Under the pieces are notes generated by a model that made no database searches, was not told where the DNA came from, and worked only from the letters and a program-made list of their open reading frames with translations. Position numbers and translations under genes: made by a program. Source: an uncultured Carboxylicivirga sp. (GTDB lineage Bacteria > Bacteroidota > Bacteroidia > Bacteroidales > Marinilabiliaceae). From it: a DNA stretch of 64,000 bases. The stretch covers positions 372,001 through 436,000 of the forward strand of contig CANNEA010000001.1 of assembly GCA_947503525.1 (NCBI GenBank), in the 5' to 3' direction. This document shows positions 52,721-63,600 of the stretch, in pieces (position 1 is the first letter of the stretch; each line of letters starts with the position of its first letter).

Positions 52721-55700
52721 ATGTTAATATTGAGACGGACCTTATTATTTTTCGTTTTATTATTCCATATAAATAGTCACGCTTACGATTTCGAAGAGTT
52801 AAATATTGAACAAGGCGTTGATTTAATTAAAGATATTTGTAGGGATCAAAATGGTTATTTGTGGTTAACAAATGGTTTTCAAGGAATCATCTGTCACAAT
52901 TCCAATAAATCAGTTTCTTTCATGCATGAACAGGGCGATACGACAAGCCTTAGTCACAATGAAGCTTTCTGCTTACATGTTGATCCGTTTAATAATTTAT
53001 GGGTTGGAACCGCCAATGGTTTAAATCGCTATGATAGAAAAACCAAATCATTTAAACGTTACTTAAATAAGGAAGATTGGAAACAGAAGCAGTTCAATGG
53101 CATCTTTCAAGTTTATACAGATTCTGAATCAAACCTATGGGCTATAAAAGCAAATGCCGTCTGTAAGTATGATTACGAGACGGATACATTTACAGAATAT
53201 GAAGAGCCGACCCATATGCAAGGTCTTCAATTGCGAGGTATTGTTCAGGATTTAAATGGGAAATACTGGATTGCTACCAATGAGGAATTTATTTTTGAAT
53301 TTGACTTACAACATGCGATTCTAAAAAAAGTAGTTGATCCATTGGCTAAATCTGAAGGATTGATACAAAAGAGTATCTATATCGATCAGGATGGTGAAAT
53401 TTGGATAAGTACTAAAGGTGAGGGGTTAGTGAAGTTTGATCCTACATATAAATCATTTAAACATTACCCGGTTTCCAATGATGGAACTGGTACCAATGGT
53501 GCACATATTTTTGATATTTTACCTTGGGGGGCCGATGAGATATTGCTTGCAGTTGACCAGGGCGGAATAAATATCTTCAATAAAAAAGAAGAAACATTTA
53601 AATACATTACGGCTGCTAATTCGGATTTACCTGGTGATGGTGTCTTCTGTTTATATCAGGATGATTCGAACAATTTATGGATTGGGACTTCGAGATATGG
53701 AGTTCTGTATGATAATCCTTATAGAATGCCTTTCAAAACGTATAGGTTTGAAGAACGTGGTGAGCATAAATTGGATAATGTTATTGGTTGTTTTTATGAA
53801 GATAATAACAAGGATATATGGATAGGAAGTGATGGGGGAGGAATAAAAGTACTAAACGATGCGGGCGATAAAAAACTGACTTATCGAAAGGAAAAAAACA
53901 GTTGGTTAAAAAGTGACGTGATACGGAATATAATTAAGTATGGGAAGAACGGAGTTCTGGTTACGGATTGGAATGGAAGCTTAAGTTTTGCAAATGGAAA
54001 AAGTACTGGCAAGCTAAGCAGGCAGTTAAGTGAAATATATCCGGCTGGAAATATTTGGAATACAATTGTTGATTTAAATAATAGAATTTGGTTTGGGCTG
54101 CCTGATGGCACTTTAGCAGTATTTGATGAAGATCAAAGTTTCATTGGACATTATTTGCCTCCAATGCAGAATCTGTTTAACGATTCACCATTTATGATAG
54201 AAGATGCCGATGGAGGATTCTACTTATCGAATTATATGGGGATATTTAAATTGGATGCATTAGATGATGAACCCATACTGATTATTCCTGAAGATAGAGT
54301 GGCCACATTTAAGATAAAAGATAATTTATTAATAGTAGGGGGTGTTGATTTTGGCATCCGGATTTATGATAAATCAGGTAATTATGTGACTGAATTTACC
54401 AAGGAAAAAGGCCTGTCCAGTAATATTATAAAATCTATTGAAATTGATGATTCAGGAGGTATTTGGGTATCTACAACCAATGGACTCAACCTAATTAATG
54501 CAGAACAAAACCATATCCAGAGATTCTATGATGTGGATGGTTTAGCCGATAATCAATTTTTTATGCAGGCTTCGTATAAAACAAAAGATGGTCAACTGTA
54601 TTTTGGAAGCTATAATGGAATGACACGGATTGATCCATTAAAGATTACCCACAATACAAATCCTCCTAAATTGAATGTTGAGAACATTACAATTTACATG
54701 GATGCTCAAGGTGAGAATATTGTTAGAGAGCTTGTGCCCAATGATACCCCAATAGTACTATCTCATAATGAAAATATGTTTGTTGTTGATTATTCAGCCA
54801 TTTGGTTTAGTAATCAAAGACAAATCGAATATGAATATATTTTAGATGGTTTTAATGATAATTGGATTTCTGTACCTGCTAATAATAACTCAATAACTTA
54901 TACCAACCTCGATCCTGGCGAATACAAATTACGTATAAAAGTAAGTAGCTCGGCAAAGCTCTGGAGTGATCAGGAGATTTCAGTTCAAATAAATATTGAG
55001 CCTCCATACTGGAAAACATGGTGGTGGTATTTACTATTGGTTCTATTAAGTGTATCTGTTTTTATTTTGATACTTCGTTTTCGTGTCTATCGTTTAAAGA
55101 GGGATAAAAGTATATTAGAAAATAAGGTTAAAGAACGAACATCTATTATAGCGGATCAGAATGAAGAATTACATGCTCAAACGGAGGAATTAGAAAAGCA
55201 CCGAAACAAATTAGAGGAGCTGGTAAGTGAACGTACAACTGAATTACTTAAGGCCAAAAAAAATGCGGAGGATGCAGATGCGCTTAAATTAAGGTTTCTT
55301 GCCAATATGAGTCATGAGATTAGAACACCGATGCATGCCATTGTTGGTTTTACCAGTATTATGCAATATTCAGATCTATCACCGGAAGAGCGACAATCTT
55401 ATTTCGAATTGATTAATCACAATGCCGATAACCTAATGGCATTAATTGAAGATATAATTGATATTTCCCGAATTGAGGCCAATCAACTGACAATTAAAAC
55501 TGAAGCTGTTAATGTCACCGAATTGCTATCCAGTCAATATGAATACTTCAAATTAAAAGTGCAAAACAATCCTTTGCAAACGATAAAACTTAATATTTCA
55601 GAATCAGCAAGAAATTTGGTTATTAATACTGATGCACTCAGAGTAACTCAAATTATAACTAATCTTGCTGGTAACGCTTTAAAATATTGTGAAGTGGGTT

Positions 55701-55960
55701 TAATCGAAATCGGCTTATTAACCGATGAGGATTATTGTGAAATCTATGTTAATGATAATGGTCCAGGAATTGCGAAAGAACATCAGAAAGTAATATTTGA
55801 TACTTTTGCTACTCTTGAAAAAACAGATAAACAAGCCAAGCGTGGTGTTGGACTGGGCTTGTCTATTTCGAAACAGTTGGCGCAGCTTTTAAAAGGAGAA
55901 TTACTTTGTGACTCTAAACCAGGTCATGGCACCAAAATGAGTCTTCGCTTACCTTTATAA
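52721..55960 (+). CDS. Periplasmic-propeller sensor histidine kinase (Reg_prop/Y_Y_Y) without receiver or AraC domain
   Basis: A 1079-residue sensor. After a signal peptide (1-21), two-component regulator propeller repeats fill residues ~25-640 ('DPFNNLWVGTANGLNRYDRKTKSF', 'DSNNLWIGTSRYGV', 'DNNKDIWIGSDGGGI'). A Y_Y_Y domain (~690-760) and one transmembrane helix (~767-787) follow, then a coiled coil and HisKA with His865 in 'NMSHEIRTPMHAIVG'. The HATPase_c domain runs to the end ('VNDNGPGIA', 'GVGLGLSISKQLAQLLKG'). Hybrid sensors of this type normally carry a receiver and an AraC helix-turn-helix; both are absent, so a separate regulator is needed. The next genes are on the other strand. Confidence 0.92.
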   Translation: MLILRRTLLFFVLLFHINSHAYDFEELNIEQGVDLIKDICRDQNGYLWLTNGFQGIICHNSNKSVSFMHEQGDTTSLSHNEAFCLHVDPFNNLWVGTANGLNRYDRKTKSFKRYLNKEDWKQKQFNGIFQVYTDSESNLWAIKANAVCKYDYETDTFTEYEEPTHMQGLQLRGIVQDLNGKYWIATNEEFIFEFDLQHAILKKVVDPLAKSEGLIQKSIYIDQDGEIWISTKGEGLVKFDPTYKSFKHYPVSNDGTGTNGAHIFDILPWGADEILLAVDQGGINIFNKKEETFKYITAANSDLPGDGVFCLYQDDSNNLWIGTSRYGVLYDNPYRMPFKTYRFEERGEHKLDNVIGCFYEDNNKDIWIGSDGGGIKVLNDAGDKKLTYRKEKNSWLKSDVIRNIIKYGKNGVLVTDWNGSLSFANGKSTGKLSRQLSEIYPAGNIWNTIVDLNNRIWFGLPDGTLAVFDEDQSFIGHYLPPMQNLFNDSPFMIEDADGGFYLSNYMGIFKLDALDDEPILIIPEDRVATFKIKDNLLIVGGVDFGIRIYDKSGNYVTEFTKEKGLSSNIIKSIEIDDSGGIWVSTTNGLNLINAEQNHIQRFYDVDGLADNQFFMQASYKTKDGQLYFGSYNGMTRIDPLKITHNTNPPKLNVENITIYMDAQGENIVRELVPNDTPIVLSHNENMFVVDYSAIWFSNQRQIEYEYILDGFNDNWISVPANNNSITYTNLDPGEYKLRIKVSSSAKLWSDQEISVQINIEPPYWKTWWWYLLLVLLSVSVFILILRFRVYRLKRDKSILENKVKERTSIIADQNEELHAQTEELEKHRNKLEELVSERTTELLKAKKNAEDADALKLRFLANMSHEIRTPMHAIVGFTSIMQYSDLSPEERQSYFELINHNADNLMALIEDIIDISRIEANQLTIKTEAVNVTELLSSQYEYFKLKVQNNPLQTIKLNISESARNLVINTDALRVTQIITNLAGNALKYCEVGLIEIGLLTDEDYCEIYVNDNGPGIAKEHQKVIFDTFATLEKTDKQAKRGVGLGLSISKQLAQLLKGELLCDSKPGHGTKMSLRLPL

Positions 55961-56035: not shown

Positions 56036-56686
56036 CTAATCGTCGTCGTCGTCGGATGTAACATCCATTGAAACATTACTCACTTCATTGGTATAATAAT
56101 AGACGACTATCTGAGCCGTATCGCGAAGAAAATTGACTTTACCTATGTCAACGCGATGGATGGGAAGGTCGGTTCGCTCTTTAAGATCTTCCATAAGTTC
56201 TTTACGTCGACCCGATTTGATTAGTTCTATTTTTTCATATATCACCAACTTACTAGATTCGTGTTTTAATAGCCATACGCGTTCAAGCGCAAAAGTGATT
56301 GCAATAACCATAAAGTTGGTGAGAGCTAATTCTGCATAACTAACATGTTTACTGCTTAAAGCATTGATAACCGAGACGCCTATAATCAGAAAAAGGTAGG
56401 TCATCTCCTTAATGGGTATTTGAGTGGTTCGATAGCGAATAATACCAAAGATGGCAAATAAGCCAAGTGCAAACCCCAATTGAAGTTTCACACTTTCCAA
56501 AAGAAAACAAAGCAAGAATACAATTGTGCTTATCAATAGAAATGTGAAGAGATAATCTTTGCGTTTAGCGGTTTGATAATATAGAACACGAACTAATATT
56601 AAGGAAACAATAAGATTGAATGAGAATCGAAGAAAGAGTTGTAATAATTCGCTCCAATTAACGATAGCGGTGTCTTGAATATTCAT
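56036..56686 (-). CDS. DUF4956 membrane protein with acidic tail
   Basis: A 216-residue protein with four or five transmembrane helices in residues ~12-145: 'LFLRFSFNLIVSLILVRVLYY', 'FTFLLISTIVFLLCFLLE', 'LGFALGLFAIFGIIRYRT', 'MTYLFLIIGVSVINAL'. A soluble C-terminal domain (~150-210, 'LIKSGRRKELMEDLKERTDLPIHRVDIGKVNFLRDTAQI') follows. It belongs to DUF4956. The last residues are SDDDDD, coded by a GTC-type triplet run. Family members sit beside VTC-type and CotH-type genes in many bacteria; here it is 23 nt downstream of the VTC gene. It may be the membrane partner of the polyphosphate polymerase domain, but no direct evidence for that is visible. Confidence 0.8.
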   Translation of the reverse strand: MNIQDTAIVNWSELLQLFLRFSFNLIVSLILVRVLYYQTAKRKDYLFTFLLISTIVFLLCFLLESVKLQLGFALGLFAIFGIIRYRTTQIPIKEMTYLFLIIGVSVINALSSKHVSYAELALTNFMVIAITFALERVWLLKHESSKLVIYEKIELIKSGRRKELMEDLKERTDLPIHRVDIGKVNFLRDTAQIVVYYYTNEVSNVSMDVTSDDDDD

Positions 56687-56709
56687 AATCTGGTTTTATG
56701 GTATTGTGT

Positions 56710-57477
56710 TTATTTCTTTAATTTTGAGAGTAGTCCAAATTTTTGTTTGAGTCTGTTTGCTTTGATGTGTCCGTTTAAGGATGCCGCTCCGAGGCAATAT
56801 TTACTGCATGATTCTGGTCTAACCTTGTATTTTTTGAGTATTTGCATCCCTCGAGAAGTGATATTGAATTTCTCTTGTTTGAATTCAATTATAACTGCTT
56901 CGGGATATAATATTTCCTTTCCATCAATGCCTTTAAAACCTAGGTTGAAATCTATTGTTAGCCTTTCTTTAGTGCCAACTAATGTGATGCGATTAAAATG
57001 GTTGGATAGTTTAAGTTCAAGATCATTCATCTTGAATGGCGAGTTTTGTTCAACAAAGCTGGATTCAAAATTGGATTGATCAGGTGACTCAATGCGTTCA
57101 ATTCTTTTCTTGATGGTTCTTCGCTTATTGTTCTTAAACTTTACTTCCAGAAAATGTTTCTTTGAGGCTACATATTCCCGCTTTCTAACCTTAAAGCGAT
57201 TTAGCTTACCGTTTTGATGTGCCTCATACATATCAAAATCTTTGGTGTCATAATATTTAGTTTTGTACTGAAATAACCTTTCCGATTCAATCTCTAAAAT
57301 TCTATAATCAGGTATAAGCTCATTAATAACATCCAACAATAAGTCAGAGGGTAAAATGAATTTAGTGTCGATGCGATTCATCAGACTCACATGATTCATT
57401 TCGTCTAAGGAGATGGCTTTATATCTATAAAGGGTCTCCTTAAGTGTATGACTAATATTGTTGTTAATCGATTCCAT
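56710..57477 (-). CDS. VTC-domain polyphosphate polymerase-like protein
   Basis: A 255-residue protein of the VTC4/triphosphate-tunnel family, which makes inorganic polyphosphate from ATP in yeast vacuoles. Tunnel-lining blocks are visible: 'SLMNRIDTKFILPSDLLL' (Arg/Lys-rich first strand), 'YKTKYYDTKDFDMYEAHQNGK', 'NRFKVRKREYV', 'HFLEVKFKNNKRRTIKKRI' and 'EILYPEAVIIEFKQEKF'. There is no transmembrane helix or signal peptide, so it is cytoplasmic or bound to the DUF4956 protein. Its catalytic acidic Glu is plausibly in 'VIIEFKQ'. It is 9 nt from the DUF2490 gene and 23 nt from DUF4956. Confidence 0.85.
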   Translation of the reverse strand: MESINNNISHTLKETLYRYKAISLDEMNHVSLMNRIDTKFILPSDLLLDVINELIPDYRILEIESERLFQYKTKYYDTKDFDMYEAHQNGKLNRFKVRKREYVASKKHFLEVKFKNNKRRTIKKRIERIESPDQSNFESSFVEQNSPFKMNDLELKLSNHFNRITLVGTKERLTIDFNLGFKGIDGKEILYPEAVIIEFKQEKFNITSRGMQILKKYKVRPESCSKYCLGAASLNGHIKANRLKQKFGLLSKLKK

Positions 57478-57485
57478 TAAAAAAC

Positions 57486-58196
57486 TTACTTTTTTGTTTT
57501 CTTTTTTCTCATCTTGAGAAACTTAGGTTTGTATTCAAAGCCCACAAATAGAATATTGACTAAATCTGGTTTAATGACATCAAATTCATCCTGTCGTTTA
57601 TAGGATAACTTGGCGTTTAAGCGTTTATTTAGTTCACCTTCAAGCGTGAAATAATAGCGGTATTTCCAATCTCCTCGCTCTTCATAGGGACTGATGCTGA
57701 AATAATATTCGATCCCTGCAGACGGATTTACCTTCCATTTCTTTTTCTGATACTTAACACTCAATTTGTGTCGATGACCCAGATAATTGATTGTGCCCTT
57801 TTCTGAACTGTTCCAATTAACATATTCATTTTGCAGCTGAGCACGATAGCGCCAGCGCAATCTATTTGTTTTTACTTCATATTTTAGATAGGCGGCAAAT
57901 CGATGTATACGCCTATTATAATTTGGCTTTTCGAAATTTACCGCAAATCTATATATTCCACCAATGTCCAGTCGTTTCAGAGCCTCGTACCCCAGGTTAA
58001 ATTCAGTCTGCCAGGTACTCAGCTGACTCGCATTTTCAAACAACCTTATTTCAGGCTCAATAGTGTATGAAACTTTCTTAGATAATTCACCTTTAAGCGT
58101 GAAATTAATCCATGTTTCAAAGTCCTCGTATTGGGCGTTCGCTGTTTGAGCAAACAAAAAAATAAGCACTATAATTCTTACTACTCTTGTCATCAA
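57486..58196 (-). CDS. DUF2490 outer-membrane protein
   Basis: A 236-residue protein with a signal peptide (MMTRVVRIIVLIFLFAQTANAQ). Amphipathic beta strands run throughout ('TWINFTLKGELSKKVSYTIEPEIRLF', 'WQTEFNLGYEALKRLDIGGIYRFAVN', 'YLKYEVKTNRLRWRYRAQLQNEYV'). This is the pattern of DUF2490 outer-membrane barrels of Bacteroidota. The C-terminus ends in a lysine-rich tail (LKMRKKKTKK) after the last strand instead of the usual aromatic. It lies in the middle of the CotH/VTC cluster, 3 nt from the lipoprotein, so an envelope role in the same pathway is likely. Confidence 0.8.
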   Translation of the reverse strand: MMTRVVRIIVLIFLFAQTANAQYEDFETWINFTLKGELSKKVSYTIEPEIRLFENASQLSTWQTEFNLGYEALKRLDIGGIYRFAVNFEKPNYNRRIHRFAAYLKYEVKTNRLRWRYRAQLQNEYVNWNSSEKGTINYLGHRHKLSVKYQKKKWKVNPSAGIEYYFSISPYEERGDWKYRYYFTLEGELNKRLNAKLSYKRQDEFDVIKPDLVNILFVGFEYKPKFLKMRKKKTKK

Positions 58197-58199
58197 ACC

Positions 58200-58598
58200 T
58201 TACTTAACAACATACAAATCTTCAATAATAAGATCTTGCTTCTTAGATATAATACTCACTTTCTTTTCAACCGTTATTAGCTTAGAAGTCATATTGTAAT
58301 CTAATGTTTTGTCCTTTGAATAAACAAATACAGTGTAGTCCCCTTCTCTTAAATATGGAAATTCGAAATACCCATCATAGCTTGTTTTAACCTTATCGCC
58401 ATAATAAGGCTCATCACCATAAATAATATATACGTCGTAATCTTGTGCAGGGTAGGTGTCTCTCAAAATGCTAAAATCAAAATTGTAATCTTGAATAATA
58501 ATTTTGCCACCAATTTTTGCCATTCCGCCTTCACCCGGTCCTTTTTCACAAGCAGAGAATAAGGTAATGAGTATGGTTAATATTAATATGTTTTTCAT
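58200..58598 (-). CDS. Small carboxypeptidase-regulatory-like lipoprotein
   Basis: A 132-residue lipoprotein (lipobox LFSAC, followed by EKGPGEGG, which favours surface export). The mature part has an immunoglobulin-like, CarboxypepD_reg-type strand set: 'GGKIIIQDYNFDF', 'VKTSYDGYFEFPYLREGDYTVFVYSKD', the form of an extracellular scaffold domain. ATG 58598 is chosen because the signal peptide starts there; an in-frame upstream start would overlap CotH. It sits between CotH and DUF2490 and probably belongs to the same surface machinery. Confidence 0.7.
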   Translation of the reverse strand: MKNILILTILITLFSACEKGPGEGGMAKIGGKIIIQDYNFDFSILRDTYPAQDYDVYIIYGDEPYYGDKVKTSYDGYFEFPYLREGDYTVFVYSKDKTLDYNMTSKLITVEKKVSIISKKQDLIIEDLYVVK

Positions 58599-58612
58599 CA
58601 AATATGTTTTAG

Positions 58613-61600
58613 TTATGGCAGCTTGCATACTTTAATGCTTTGTGAGCCAGTCTTACTACTCAACCTAAGAATGTATACTCCAGAATGAAGGTTCTTCTCT
58701 ACATTCCATGTTAAATTATTAGAGCCCGCGAAGTAAAATGTATTCTTATCGCTTTGAACAATAGAACCATTGATGTTTAGTAGTTCTATGCTATAGTAGC
58801 CTTCTTGTTCAATGCTGAAAGTGATTTCAAATTTATTTCTAAACGGATTAGGATAACAATTCAAATTCGCATTAAAGTTAAACGATGGATTAAAAATGCC
58901 AACATCAGTATAGTTTGTATTAGGTCCACCTGGAGTTCCACCACCCCAGGAAGCTTCCCAGTTTTCACCTAAGCCGTTTTCGCTTGAAGGATGTTTAAGT
59001 TCAATTGAAGCGCCTTGACCATTGGCTTCTGATGGCCAATTGCCGCTTGGATAATAGTCAACAGCATCTACAAGCTGATCTTCATTATCATATAATCGTA
59101 AATAATCTCCGTTGCTACTTAGGCCAAATTCAAATTCACCACTTATATTATTTACCATTGGATAAGTGGTTTTAAACTTAACTTTGTCCTTACAGATGAC
59201 GTGATAGGCACCAGGAGACAACAATAAGTTATCATTAAAAATAAAAGCGGAGTCATCCTGAGTGTCGCTAAACATCCAGTCTTTTAAATTAACACTTGTA
59301 CTTCCGGCATTAAATAGCTCAATCCAATCTCCGGGTTTTATACTTTCAGATGATTTATAGAAGACCTCATTGATAACCACATTTCTATCACTGGCATCGG
59401 CCTTTGCAAAAATGGCTTTGTGAGTTGCTTCGGATGTTGGCGTGTAGTCCAATTTCGAGGAAATAGTTTCTAAATCGCCTTCCCATCCTACAAATTTGTA
59501 TCCCGGTTCTGGAATGGCTTCAATAACAATGGGTACATCAGCATACTCATAAGAACTAGTGGGGTAGTAGGATAAAGCTCGACCATTGACTTGAACTTTC
59601 CCATGGTTTTTATCTGATATATCAATATTAATTCTTATTTCCTCATCAACACCAAATAGGCTCATAAGATCGTCCTCAAAATAATCCGGTCTGTACTGGG
59701 CGAAAGTTTTTAAAGAGGATATATTATAACTCCAATTGTTATAGCTTAAATTCCATCTTGTACAATGCGCCTGCATCTCATTGGAGTAGAGCTGGGAAAT
59801 TGAATCAACCTTAGCTTTTATACGGGATGGTTGCCATGTAGTATTTAAATGTATTTTGGCTCGTTTTACAAATTCATGTTTAAAATCAGAATTCGCTTTA
59901 AGCTTGCGAAACAACAATGTTGACCAAGGCGGATTTGGCCAACCAGACCCATTACTGGCCAATGCATCGGATAAAGAATTGTATTTGAAATTTTCGTTCC
60001 CATATAGGCCAAAGCCAAAATCGGTATCATATAATATCCATCTGTACCTACTCTTTGTACTCGTGGTATTCCAAAACTTAATGTTATTGCCAGGCCAATC
60101 ACGATTGTCAATATAGGTCTGGATTAATAAATAATCGATGTAGTTTTCAATGTCTATGATGGATTTTACTTTTTCGTAATTGTCTTGATCGGATAAATTG
60201 TTAGATTCTACAAACTGTAGTAATTCCTTGTATTTATCATTGTTACCACTCACAACATAACCATCGCGTTCAAGAATATTTACACTGTCTGCTCTAATAT
60301 AGGTATGATCTGATATAAAATGTTCATTGATTTTCTCACGCATATTAAGTATTCCCCAGTATGCGCCATTTAAATAAACTACCGTTGGTTGATAGCCTTG
60401 TGATTCTACATCAATCGGTTCCATGATGTCGCCGATTAGAGCATCACGAAAATGAGTCGTGTAGAAGTCATTGCCCGAATTTCGCAGTACCAAGGCTTCA
60501 TATTTATTATTGTCTCTGTTTTTAAAAAACTTATAGCTTAATGAACCATCACCATATTCCTTTCGGGCAAATAGGGACATAGACTTAAGAGGGTGAGCTC
60601 TTGACCAGGCGCCAAAAATTTTCACCCCTACACCTTGATCGATTTGCTTTACACCATTTTGATCGAAATACTCAAAGTGCATTGGTTTTTCCCAGTCTTG
60701 CCAAAAGTTAGCTCCAAAGTGAGGATTGTCATTTTCAGCATTTGGACCCATGACATATATGCCAGTTTGATAATCCCAAAGATTATCAGGATCTGTGGAT
60801 AAGCTAACAACCGGAAGTGTGTGATTTTTGCCAATAACATAAGTGTGCGTCGTGACAGGACCAGCTAATTTATCATTTTCATATATACGTGCCCGAATTA
60901 CAGAGTCAGAATTAATTTCAAGGGGAGCCGTGTATAATAAGCTATTCTTATTTGGAATTGATCCATCTGTTGTAAAATGGATTTCTCCATTAGAAGTTTC
61001 AGGAAGGCTTAAAGTCAGTCTTAAAGAATTAGCATGCATGCCGCCATATTCAGAAAACATAACAGAATCAGTGTTCAGTACATTGGCTGTTGTTCCGGTA
61101 TTGGCCTGGCCGGGAGTTGGAGTTTCAAAATAAGCCCAATCCATGTCGCCATCGGTTTTTCTTCCAAATGATACATCGCTATAAACTTGTGTGGCTTCAA
61201 CCGAATCAATTAATTCCTTTTGACGAAAAAGATAAAGTGATTCACCATCCGCTTTTATTTTAAAATTGGTATGCAGATACGATTGCGGTAAATTAATATG
61301 TTCAGATGCTATTTTGCCTGAAACTTCATTTAGTCCAAGAGACAAAAAAGGCACACAACTAAGATCGGATGAGGTTATGGAATAGTTGTGAACCTGAATG
61401 GCTAATACGTTGTCTCCATTCTGTAATATTTCTTTCCATTGTAATATTTCATATGCTTCCGGCGGAATGCCTTGATACATGAATGCTTCGTGATCCCAGT
61501 CATCAGCAGCCTGATTATATGCAACGAAATTTCCAGACGTACCAATGTTTGAGCGTGCTATTTCCTTTCCATTGATATAAGCAACAAATCCATCATCATA

Positions 61601-62164
61601 GTCCATATGCAATATGAGCTGTGAGATCATATCCATATCATCAATAGTAAATTTTTTACGAACAAAGAGACTAATTGTTGGATCTATGATGGTTTCATCA
61701 TCATCGTCTCCATAACCAATCCCGGATAAACCAATGCTCCAATCTTCATCATTAAACTCTAATGTTTTCCAGGAAGCATCTAATTCTTGAGTAGGGATTA
61801 AGTATCTTAGTTCATCACCTTTATCTAAAATAGTATGCCATTCGTTTATAAGATTTATTCGGTTTTTACCGGAAGCAAAAACAAATAAATGATCATCAGT
61901 TGAAAGCGTTATGTCCGGCAAAGCCCATTTGAAGGTATCCTGTAAGTTATCTGTAAGAAAGTATTGGTTTAAGCTAACGACATCGTTTGAAGAGTTATAC
62001 AGTTCTAACCAATCCGGATAGTCGCCATCTTCGTCGCTAAGACCTGTGACATTGGAAGAAACAAATTCGTTGATCTTAATTTGTCCCAAGGAGTAAGTAG
62101 GAACAAATAGTATAAATATGGCAAAAGCCAGTAATGGCCTTATGTTTTTAGGATCTTTAAACAT
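58613..62164 (-). CDS. Secreted CotH-like protein kinase with lamin-tail domains and T9SS sorting domain
   Basis: A 1183-residue extracellular protein. After a signal peptide (1-27) come a lamin-tail domain (~30-95, 'DYPDWLELYNSS'), beta domains, and a chitobiase C-terminal-like strand (~395-445, 'GEIHFTTDGSIPNKNSLLYTAP'). The CotH kinase-like domain spans ~455-800. Kinase-type motifs are seen: 'NRDWPGNNIKFW' (Asp at ~687, with a metal Asn like the HRD...N loop) and 'WILYDTDFGFG' (~712, DFG-like). A second lamin-tail domain (~925-1070, 'GDWIELFNAGSTS') and a T9SS sorting domain ('NCYPNPFRNKFEI') end it. Spore-coat CotH is an atypical ATP-dependent kinase. Here it heads the cluster. Confidence 0.88.
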   Translation of the reverse strand: MFKDPKNIRPLLAFAIFILFVPTYSLGQIKINEFVSSNVTGLSDEDGDYPDWLELYNSSNDVVSLNQYFLTDNLQDTFKWALPDITLSTDDHLFVFASGKNRINLINEWHTILDKGDELRYLIPTQELDASWKTLEFNDEDWSIGLSGIGYGDDDDETIIDPTISLFVRKKFTIDDMDMISQLILHMDYDDGFVAYINGKEIARSNIGTSGNFVAYNQAADDWDHEAFMYQGIPPEAYEILQWKEILQNGDNVLAIQVHNYSITSSDLSCVPFLSLGLNEVSGKIASEHINLPQSYLHTNFKIKADGESLYLFRQKELIDSVEATQVYSDVSFGRKTDGDMDWAYFETPTPGQANTGTTANVLNTDSVMFSEYGGMHANSLRLTLSLPETSNGEIHFTTDGSIPNKNSLLYTAPLEINSDSVIRARIYENDKLAGPVTTHTYVIGKNHTLPVVSLSTDPDNLWDYQTGIYVMGPNAENDNPHFGANFWQDWEKPMHFEYFDQNGVKQIDQGVGVKIFGAWSRAHPLKSMSLFARKEYGDGSLSYKFFKNRDNNKYEALVLRNSGNDFYTTHFRDALIGDIMEPIDVESQGYQPTVVYLNGAYWGILNMREKINEHFISDHTYIRADSVNILERDGYVVSGNNDKYKELLQFVESNNLSDQDNYEKVKSIIDIENYIDYLLIQTYIDNRDWPGNNIKFWNTTSTKSRYRWILYDTDFGFGLYGNENFKYNSLSDALASNGSGWPNPPWSTLLFRKLKANSDFKHEFVKRAKIHLNTTWQPSRIKAKVDSISQLYSNEMQAHCTRWNLSYNNWSYNISSLKTFAQYRPDYFEDDLMSLFGVDEEIRINIDISDKNHGKVQVNGRALSYYPTSSYEYADVPIVIEAIPEPGYKFVGWEGDLETISSKLDYTPTSEATHKAIFAKADASDRNVVINEVFYKSSESIKPGDWIELFNAGSTSVNLKDWMFSDTQDDSAFIFNDNLLLSPGAYHVICKDKVKFKTTYPMVNNISGEFEFGLSSNGDYLRLYDNEDQLVDAVDYYPSGNWPSEANGQGASIELKHPSSENGLGENWEASWGGGTPGGPNTNYTDVGIFNPSFNFNANLNCYPNPFRNKFEITFSIEQEGYYSIELLNINGSIVQSDKNTFYFAGSNNLTWNVEKNLHSGVYILRLSSKTGSQSIKVCKLP

Positions 62165-62322: not shown

Positions 62323-63600
62323 TTAAAAGTTAAAACCTAAACCAAGTTCAATGTAATTACCGGTTGGGATAGCAAATTCAGTAGAAGTATGACTGTTGCG
62401 AAATTGGTAATTGGCCTTCAATACAATGTCCTCTGTGAAATTAAAATTAGTGCCAATGGCCAATATGGTCATGTAATTTTGAACCCTTGGCAATGCAATC
62501 AGTTCTTGTTCCACTTCCTTATGAGTATTTAGATGTTCAAGACGTACAAATATTGGTAATTTCATTTCATGTGTATCAATTAGGCGCTTTTCAATACTCT
62601 TTCGATTCCACCAAAACCAATGTAAAAGGTCTACTCCAAATTCAGAATAGATACCAAAAGCTTTTTTCCCAAGTACCTCGCCATTCCCATTTTTGGCTTT
62701 AGTTAATTGATAAATGCCATTCGTGTCGGACAGCCATCCATAGTTGCCTGAAAGTAAAAAACGAAAATTTTTGGGACTATAACGCAAGTAGCCTGATAGT
62801 AAAGTTAGATTAGAGTTTAAGTCGTAATTTTTATTTTCGAATTGATAGCTGTGGTTCCCATTTGACCCGTAGTAGGCTGATAAGTTTAGGTCAAGCACTC
62901 CGGATGTTGAGTAATTTATCTGACCAACTATGGCCAATGAATTTAAATCAAATGCCTCTCGTCCATTTCGAACCCATGTAGCACTTTTAAAATGTTGGGC
63001 ATCCAAGCCTGAAACAAGACTTGCAAAATAACTGAAGTCATCATTGAACTTTCCATAGGCTGCGGCTCCCAGTTCAATCCATGTTGATGGGAGTATGATT
63101 CGTTCGCTTTCCGGACGATTAACTGAGTAGAACAAAATAGGTTCGTCATTACTGTTGATATAGCCTATTCCAAGTGGATGAAATCCAAGTCTTAAATTAA
63201 AAGCCGGATCATATCGGTAATCCGCAAATAATTCGAAGTTTAATTCAGTATGACCATCGCTATTCGCACTAAGGTATTCAATTTGGATTTCACTATTAAT
63301 TATGAATTTCTGAGTAAAGCGATATCCAAAAAATATGGCTAAACGGTAAAGGTTATTGTAGTAGAGTTCGATGTCATCAAGGGCTTCCCTGTCAGGTGTA
63401 AATCCAGGTGTTGCAACATGGTTTATCTCGCCAAAACCACTTATTGACCAGGGTTTTTCAGAAAAGAAAATGCTTGAAGCCGCTTTCCCTAAACCGGGGT
63501 ATTGTTTTGATTGTACTATTGAATCATTATTTGCACTTTGTGCCAATGAAATTAAGCTTATTGAAAAAAAGACCATCAGTATGATTAATCGTATTCTCAT
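62323..63600 (-). CDS. Outer-membrane porin-like barrel
   Basis: A 425-residue protein with a signal peptide (residues 1-21, ending SLAQSA). Dense amphipathic strands with aromatic ends fill it: 'SISGFGEINHVATPGF', 'LYRLAIFFGYRFTQKFIINSEIQIEYLS', 'FNLRLGFHPLGIGYIN', and a closing 'GNYIELGLGFNF' with terminal Phe. The style resembles phosphate-selective porin (OprO/P)-like proteins of Bacteroidota, but by eye I cannot confirm the anion-binding residues. It lies upstream of CotH with a 158-bp gap and has no obvious -7 motif. Whether it belongs to the CotH cluster is open; a phosphate porin would fit. Confidence 0.7.
   Translation of the reverse strand: MRIRLIILMVFFSISLISLAQSANNDSIVQSKQYPGLGKAASSIFFSEKPWSISGFGEINHVATPGFTPDREALDDIELYYNNLYRLAIFFGYRFTQKFIINSEIQIEYLSANSDGHTELNFELFADYRYDPAFNLRLGFHPLGIGYINSNDEPILFYSVNRPESERIILPSTWIELGAAAYGKFNDDFSYFASLVSGLDAQHFKSATWVRNGREAFDLNSLAIVGQINYSTSGVLDLNLSAYYGSNGNHSYQFENKNYDLNSNLTLLSGYLRYSPKNFRFLLSGNYGWLSDTNGIYQLTKAKNGNGEVLGKKAFGIYSEFGVDLLHWFWWNRKSIEKRLIDTHEMKLPIFVRLEHLNTHKEVEQELIALPRVQNYMTILAIGTNFNFTEDIVLKANYQFRNSHTSTEFAIPTGNYIELGLGFNF

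Follow-up and report, generated by a model that had tools for sequence, protein, structure and literature searches.

A conserved, Pel-independent CotH-VTC-DUF4956 module in a Carboxylicivirga genome and its possible role in handling a phosphate polymer across the cell envelope

Streptococci, clostridia and bifidobacteria have been described as carrying, among their Pel accessory genes, a triad that encodes a CotH protein, a poly-phosphate polymerase and a DUF4956 protein (PMC7112168). In Streptococcus intermedius Pel rose when SIR_1592, taken here for the DUF4956 counterpart, was deleted and fell when the CotH gene (SIR_1594) was, and in sputum medium either mutation reduced aggregation to less than half, whereas the strain lacking the VTC gene (SIR_1593) retained aggregation, with no change reported for it; the authors also state that they did not encounter the arrangement away from the Pel locus (PMC12345266). 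Here we describe a cluster of these three families, together with a small lipoprotein and a DUF2490 protein, in a 64,000-nucleotide stretch of DNA (the window) from an uncultured Carboxylicivirga sp. (GCA_947503525.1, contig CANNEA010000001.1, positions 372,001 to 436,000). PelG was not found over the cut-off in the window genome or in the 23 VTC-bearing genomes of a 118-genome sample of the phylum (other Pel genes were not searched); it exceeded the cut-off in a single genome of the sample, which was without VTC, and the VTC genomes gave one sub-threshold match (G055, 7.9e-4). The triad thus extends beyond Pel loci, and the module described here is a genuine and conserved variant, independent of Pel, of a module already known but still unexplained. 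The sequence evidence suggests that it probably handles a phosphate polymer across the cell envelope; the best explanation is an envelope-spanning phosphate-polymer module, to which we assign a probability of only roughly 0.35. The first-pass annotation of this DNA held that such neighbourhoods have no described function, which is nearly right, and in the open-licence PMC literature we found no paper that names CotH, VTC and DUF4956 together; the Pel accessory role and the partial phenotype cited above, however, qualify that statement.

The five genes form a tight array on the minus strand, as first annotated, and their families were assigned by Pfam (Table 1). Gaps of 3, 8 and 23 bases separate, in turn, the lipoprotein, DUF2490, VTC and DUF4956 genes, while the lipoprotein frame starts inside the CotH gene, a later ATG being the better start. 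Among 80 related loci picked by VTC similarity, many of which end early at contig ends, DUF4956 lies directly after VTC in 76, and two of the four exceptions (L058 and L068) end right behind VTC. Within 8 kb of VTC, 63 of the 80 loci have DUF2490, 45 have CotH and 41 have a member of the lipoprotein family. The neighbourhood of CotH, VTC, DUF4956 and DUF2490 is therefore conserved, far from chance and not random, but the conserved order that had been expected does not hold: 25 different strings occur over the 80 loci, some of them merely incomplete or with extra copies, and the order of the window appears in 2 of 80.

Table 1. Features of the window and gene order at the three VTC copies of its genome
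Feature	Coordinates	Strand	Details
CotH kinase gene	58613-62164	-	1183 amino acids; Pfam CotH 5.8e-45
Small lipoprotein	58200-58598	-	Frame opens at 58628; probable start at the ATG at 58598; weak transthyretin-like/fn3_3 matches
DUF2490 protein	57486-58196	-	PF10677 7.3e-15
VTC-type triphosphate-tunnel (polyphosphate polymerase) protein	56710-57477	-	Pfam VTC 3.7e-22; no signal peptide seen
DUF4956 membrane protein	56036-56686	-	PF16316 2.9e-52
Large hybrid regulator	52721-55960		Reg_prop propeller, Y_Y_Y, HisKA, HATPase; convergent with the DUF4956 end of the cluster
Outer-membrane-like protein	62323-63600		425 amino acids; signal peptide (by eye)
VTC copy 1 (window)			CotH-lipoprotein-DUF2490-VTC-DUF4956
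VTC copy 2 (L118)			VTC-DUF4956-DUF2490-CotH
VTC copy 3 (L119)			VTC-DUF4956 and a diverged CotH-like gene

Both putative enzymes of the cluster retain their active sites. The VTC protein has a triphosphate-tunnel fold for which Vtc4 is the closest match, nearer to the polymerase than to triphosphatases, and its residues R98, R100 and E198, invariant in 35 proteins, were matched by profile alignment to R264, R266 and E426, the catalytic residues of Vtc4 (PMC9911596). The basic tunnel residues and the catalytic Glu are intact, and on the basis of fold and active site the protein is likely to synthesize polyphosphate. The CotH protein comprises a signal peptide (read by eye), two LTD stretches, an Fn3_assoc domain, the CotH domain (residues 514-828), an InlB-like repeat and a type A sorting tail of the type IX secretion system (T9SS) at residues 1104-1178 (Pfam scan 1.3e-10; TIGR04183 1.2e-10), which agrees with the T9SS secretion originally proposed for it. 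The kinase-type motifs could also be located, NRD at residues 687-689 and DTDFG at 713-717, and neither of the two Asp residues, D689 and D713, varies among 17 aligned proteins or in another set of 10. From motif and spacing only, they fit as counterparts of D228 and D251 of Bacillus subtilis CotH, whose mutants are inactive (PMC7821199). The active site is therefore present, and the window CotH would be an active extracytoplasmic kinase. That the cluster consists of chance neighbours with misnamed domains is extremely improbable, and this reading was rejected in view of the conserved neighbourhood, the Pfam matches, and the fold and active-site placement of VTC.

In the phosphate-polymer explanation a cytoplasmic VTC protein would polymerize the gamma-phosphate of ATP into polyphosphate, as its fold and active site suggest, and DUF4956, an MgtC-like protein that nearly always follows VTC, may export or gate the chain, a role also proposed for the membrane part of the yeast VTC complex. 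DUF2490, which from its family we presume to be an outer-membrane beta-barrel, or an HlyD-like adaptor in other lineages, would carry the polymer over the periplasm and outer membrane, and the T9SS-exported CotH would phosphorylate proteins that the system places at the surface, the lipoprotein of the cluster perhaps among them. The lipobox of this lipoprotein (LFSAC, read by eye) is the sole visible basis for its putative placement at the cell surface, and no Pfam family matched it over the cut-off. An arrangement spanning cytoplasm, inner membrane, outer membrane and surface, as first envisaged, is supported. As regards the direction of coupling, a preparing or anchoring role of CotH for the exported polymer or the surface matrix is more likely than its use of the polymer as donor, because in the 118-genome sample VTC never occurs without CotH but CotH often occurs without VTC.

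That sample was drawn evenly from the phylum and was accompanied by 14 control genomes. VTC was present in 23 of the 118, CotH in 47 and DUF4956 in 36; all 23 VTC genomes contained both CotH and DUF4956, and CotH was found in 33 of the 36 DUF4956 genomes, G049 additionally having a CotH-like gene beside DUF4956. The hypergeometric statistics for these co-occurrences treat genomes as independent. In the controls VTC and DUF4956 were found in exactly the same three genomes, two of which had CotH. From the 26 VTC matches outside the window genome 25 loci were fetched, the 26th being a fragment of 54 profile positions, and DUF4956 was near VTC in 24 by profile and in the remaining locus (L095) by Pfam. 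CotH lay within 8 kb in only 6 of the 25, an adjacency with P of 1.6e-6 to 8e-5, assuming an estimated chance of 1.5-3% per locus. It might be proposed that the genes form one surface-matrix regulon with no direct biochemical coupling, in which CotH, the lipoprotein and DUF2490 build the surface and VTC and DUF4956 serve stress storage. Consistent with this proposal, CotH was missing within 8 kb from 35 of the 80 VTC-selected loci (15 of them with complete flanks) and from 19 of the 25, and T9SS proteins of another kind occupy the CotH position in some loci. Such a regulon, however, does not readily account for the retention of CotH in 23 of 23 VTC genomes, nor for the linkage of VTC to CotH proteins from separate branches and in varying gene orders, and we view it as unlikely.

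The branches in question were resolved in a tree of 91 CotH domains, in which the two CotH proteins of the window genome fall in well-separated branches. VTC linkage on this tree needs 7 changes, be they losses or gains, at least 5 of which are forced by well-supported branches, compared with 18.4 for shuffled labels, which indicates a share of inheritance in the linkage as well. Some placements are unsure because of several long branches, and the tree, from which L003, L158 and L160 were omitted because they repeat the window or L005/L004, together with domains shorter than 200 amino acids, sets 71 VTC-linked rows, mostly from VTC-chosen loci, against 20 others. Within the genus VTC is present in 14 of 14 genomes, and a match to the Pfam CotH model in 12, in part limited to its first quarter; in the remaining two congeners (G119 and G125) the CotH-like gene lies directly behind a VTC gene. 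Four congeners (G118, G120, G122 and G123; loci L159, L160, L162 and L161, respectively) have the complete window order, and a further locus of G122 (L158) has it without DUF4956. Three VTC genes occur in the window genome itself (Table 1). A diverged CotH-like family of ~340-380 amino acids, partly below the reach of Pfam, adjoins VTC or DUF4956 (L151, L152, L153, L155, L156, L157, L163 and L165; L119:7509-8558; L107:9919-10944); the two members that were read have a signal peptide and N-x-DW and DFDMS motifs, and the family is likely to be a new branch of CotH kinases.

The first-pass annotation suggested that polyphosphate synthesized by VTC and passed outward by DUF4956 might supply the phosphate for the extracellular CotH kinase. 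The linkage and the one-way co-occurrence of VTC with CotH are compatible with this scheme, and PMC7821199 describes the origin of the ATP used by B. subtilis CotH as a question still without an answer, although it also reports that the enzyme uses ATP in vitro. CotH, however, is found without VTC in 24 of its 47 genomes, 14 of which also lack DUF4956. When one CotH region was fetched from each of these 14, CotH was found by profile in 13 (not L121); by eye, most starts were signal-like, in more than ten proteins, and many tails T9SS-like. Together with the S. intermedius deletions, in which the loss of CotH and of the presumed DUF4956 had a phenotype and that of VTC had none reported (PMC12345266), these secreted-like proteins indicate that CotH can act without VTC. 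A donor role of polyphosphate is unlikely, and the scheme built upon it decidedly improbable.

The DUF4956 protein scores 177.3 bits against a Pfam cut-off of 30.6, and its model (pLDDT 83) contains five helices and, at the C terminus, a beta-alpha-beta-beta domain, with no significant match to solved structures. Its acidic C-terminal tail, recorded at the outset, is present but is not common to the other 19 aligned proteins. A wider DUF4956 profile (34 proteins) matched MgtC with a probability of 97.7 over 196 columns (reversed control 0.3), whereas a closer profile (80 relatives) gave 4.7 (reversed control 0.5). Three diverged DUF4956 proteins match MgtC (PF02308) below the cut-off (0.034-0.83), and the window protein had no MgtC match in the Pfam scan. 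DUF4956 is possibly a distant MgtC relative, and this comparison fits the published reading of SIR_1592 as an MgtC transmembrane part with an ACT domain (PMC12345266). The MgtC likeness gives weight to an explanation without export, in which VTC is a cytoplasmic triphosphate or short-chain polyphosphate enzyme that provides or senses phosphate and, with MgtC-like DUF4956 as a phosphate or ATP sensor, controls the surface matrix, CotH being the output kinase fed by ATP outside the cell or during secretion. PMC12345266 cites ATP synthase and PhoR as targets of MgtC, and the opposite effects of the SIR_1592 and CotH deletions on Pel would also accord with such control. The VTC fold, however, is nearer to the polymerase than to triphosphatases, the neighbours of DUF4956 described below point to transport, and we consider this explanation, taken as a whole, possible though somewhat unlikely.

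In other lineages a protein of about 354-373 amino acids adjoins the VTC-DUF4956 pair, in 15 of the 25 fetched loci, and its profile matches the EmrA (4.9e-13), MacA and AcrA adaptors in the PDB. Of five members scanned in Pfam, two (L101 and L113) reached the HlyD cut-off, L114 fell below it, and L089 and L098 had no match. Within 4 kb of VTC this adaptor and DUF2490 are mutually exclusive, 66 loci having DUF2490 only, 15 the adaptor only and 24 neither. In a side observation, three loci without VTC (L104:9533-12438, L106:9268-12192 and L110:6713-9811) encode DUF4956, an HlyD-like protein and a possible TolC-like protein one after another. DUF4956 is followed there by a protein of 330-343 amino acids with HlyD or biotin-lipoyl-like matches in the two loci scanned (over the cut-off in L110, below it in L106), and then by one of 410-416 amino acids, which in L104 weakly matches outer-membrane efflux proteins (0.0019, below the cut-off) and in L106 and L110 has no match; the row is possibly a tripartite system of its own. 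Export is favoured because HlyD-like and weakly TolC-like proteins neighbour DUF4956, and a polymer would be a plausible cargo.

Several further observations concern the surroundings of the module. The hybrid regulator and the 425-residue protein flank the cluster (Table 1), and the latter has no Pfam family and no relatives among the fetched loci. An unnamed secreted family of ~108-198 amino acids with repeated YD..G/YN..G units lies mostly directly before VTC in 34 fetched loci (for example L029:9420-9989); the one member scanned had no Pfam family over the cut-off. The module also occurs on a contig labelled Caldilineaceae (Chloroflexota; L023), possibly mis-binned, whose CotH falls among Bacteroidota sequences in the tree, and two gammaproteobacterial isolates (L056 and L063) have CotH-VTC-DUF4956. 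Clostridium perfringens NELoc-2 contains VTC and CotH genes as well, and in a table of the same paper CP4_0461 and CP4_0464, 'tubulin/FtsZ GTPases' of 222-226 amino acids directly behind the VTC genes, match DUF4956 in size and position, so that their name is probably wrong (PMC2879425). A DUF4956-DUF2490 pair of Bacteroides thetaiotaomicron (BT3498-99) appears in an iron-stimulon table (PMC10434189).

PPK1 and PPK2 are named as the bacterial polyphosphate synthases (PMC10657179; PMC13318637). Three PPK1-type genes (G000:C5:222240, C5:381926 and C3:671709) accompany the three VTC genes of the window genome, and VTC-type enzymes with intact active sites occur in Bacteroidota genomes alongside PPK1, with CotH somewhere in every such genome of the 118-genome sample. 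The module makes testable both how extracytoplasmic kinases are supplied with phosphate and how polyphosphate could travel outward. A bolder proposal, which we think distinctly unlikely, is a bacterial machine analogous to the yeast VTC complex, which would make polyphosphate and pass it through both membranes, to be used by the exported kinase as donor or for a polyphosphate-bearing surface; if true, it would constitute a dedicated bacterial polyphosphate secretion system and an energy source for phosphorylation outside the cell.

Compared with known systems, the window protein shares with the B. subtilis spore-coat kinase CotH the CotH domain, both catalytic Asp residues and, presumably, action on a surface layer, but differs in its T9SS tail and LTD domains, and the B. 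subtilis control genome gave no match to VTC or DUF4956. The eukaryotic VTC complex has an SPX domain and a DUF202/Vtc1-type membrane part. The likeness to the yeast complex (Vtc4 with Vtc1/Vtc3) lies in the tunnel polymerase fold, the catalytic residues and the pairing of a cytosolic enzyme with a membrane protein; in the window, however, that partner is DUF4956, and no SPX or Vtc1-type domain came up when all five were scanned with Pfam up to E 1. In the comparison with Pel systems, DUF4832 was absent from the Pfam scans made. A close counterpart is the Gram-positive Pel triad, exemplified by SIR_1592-1594 of S. intermedius, in which the same three families stand side by side and CotH is secreted, as here; to these the window cluster adds the T9SS tail, the LTD domains, the lipoprotein and DUF2490, the place of which is taken elsewhere by HlyD-like partners.

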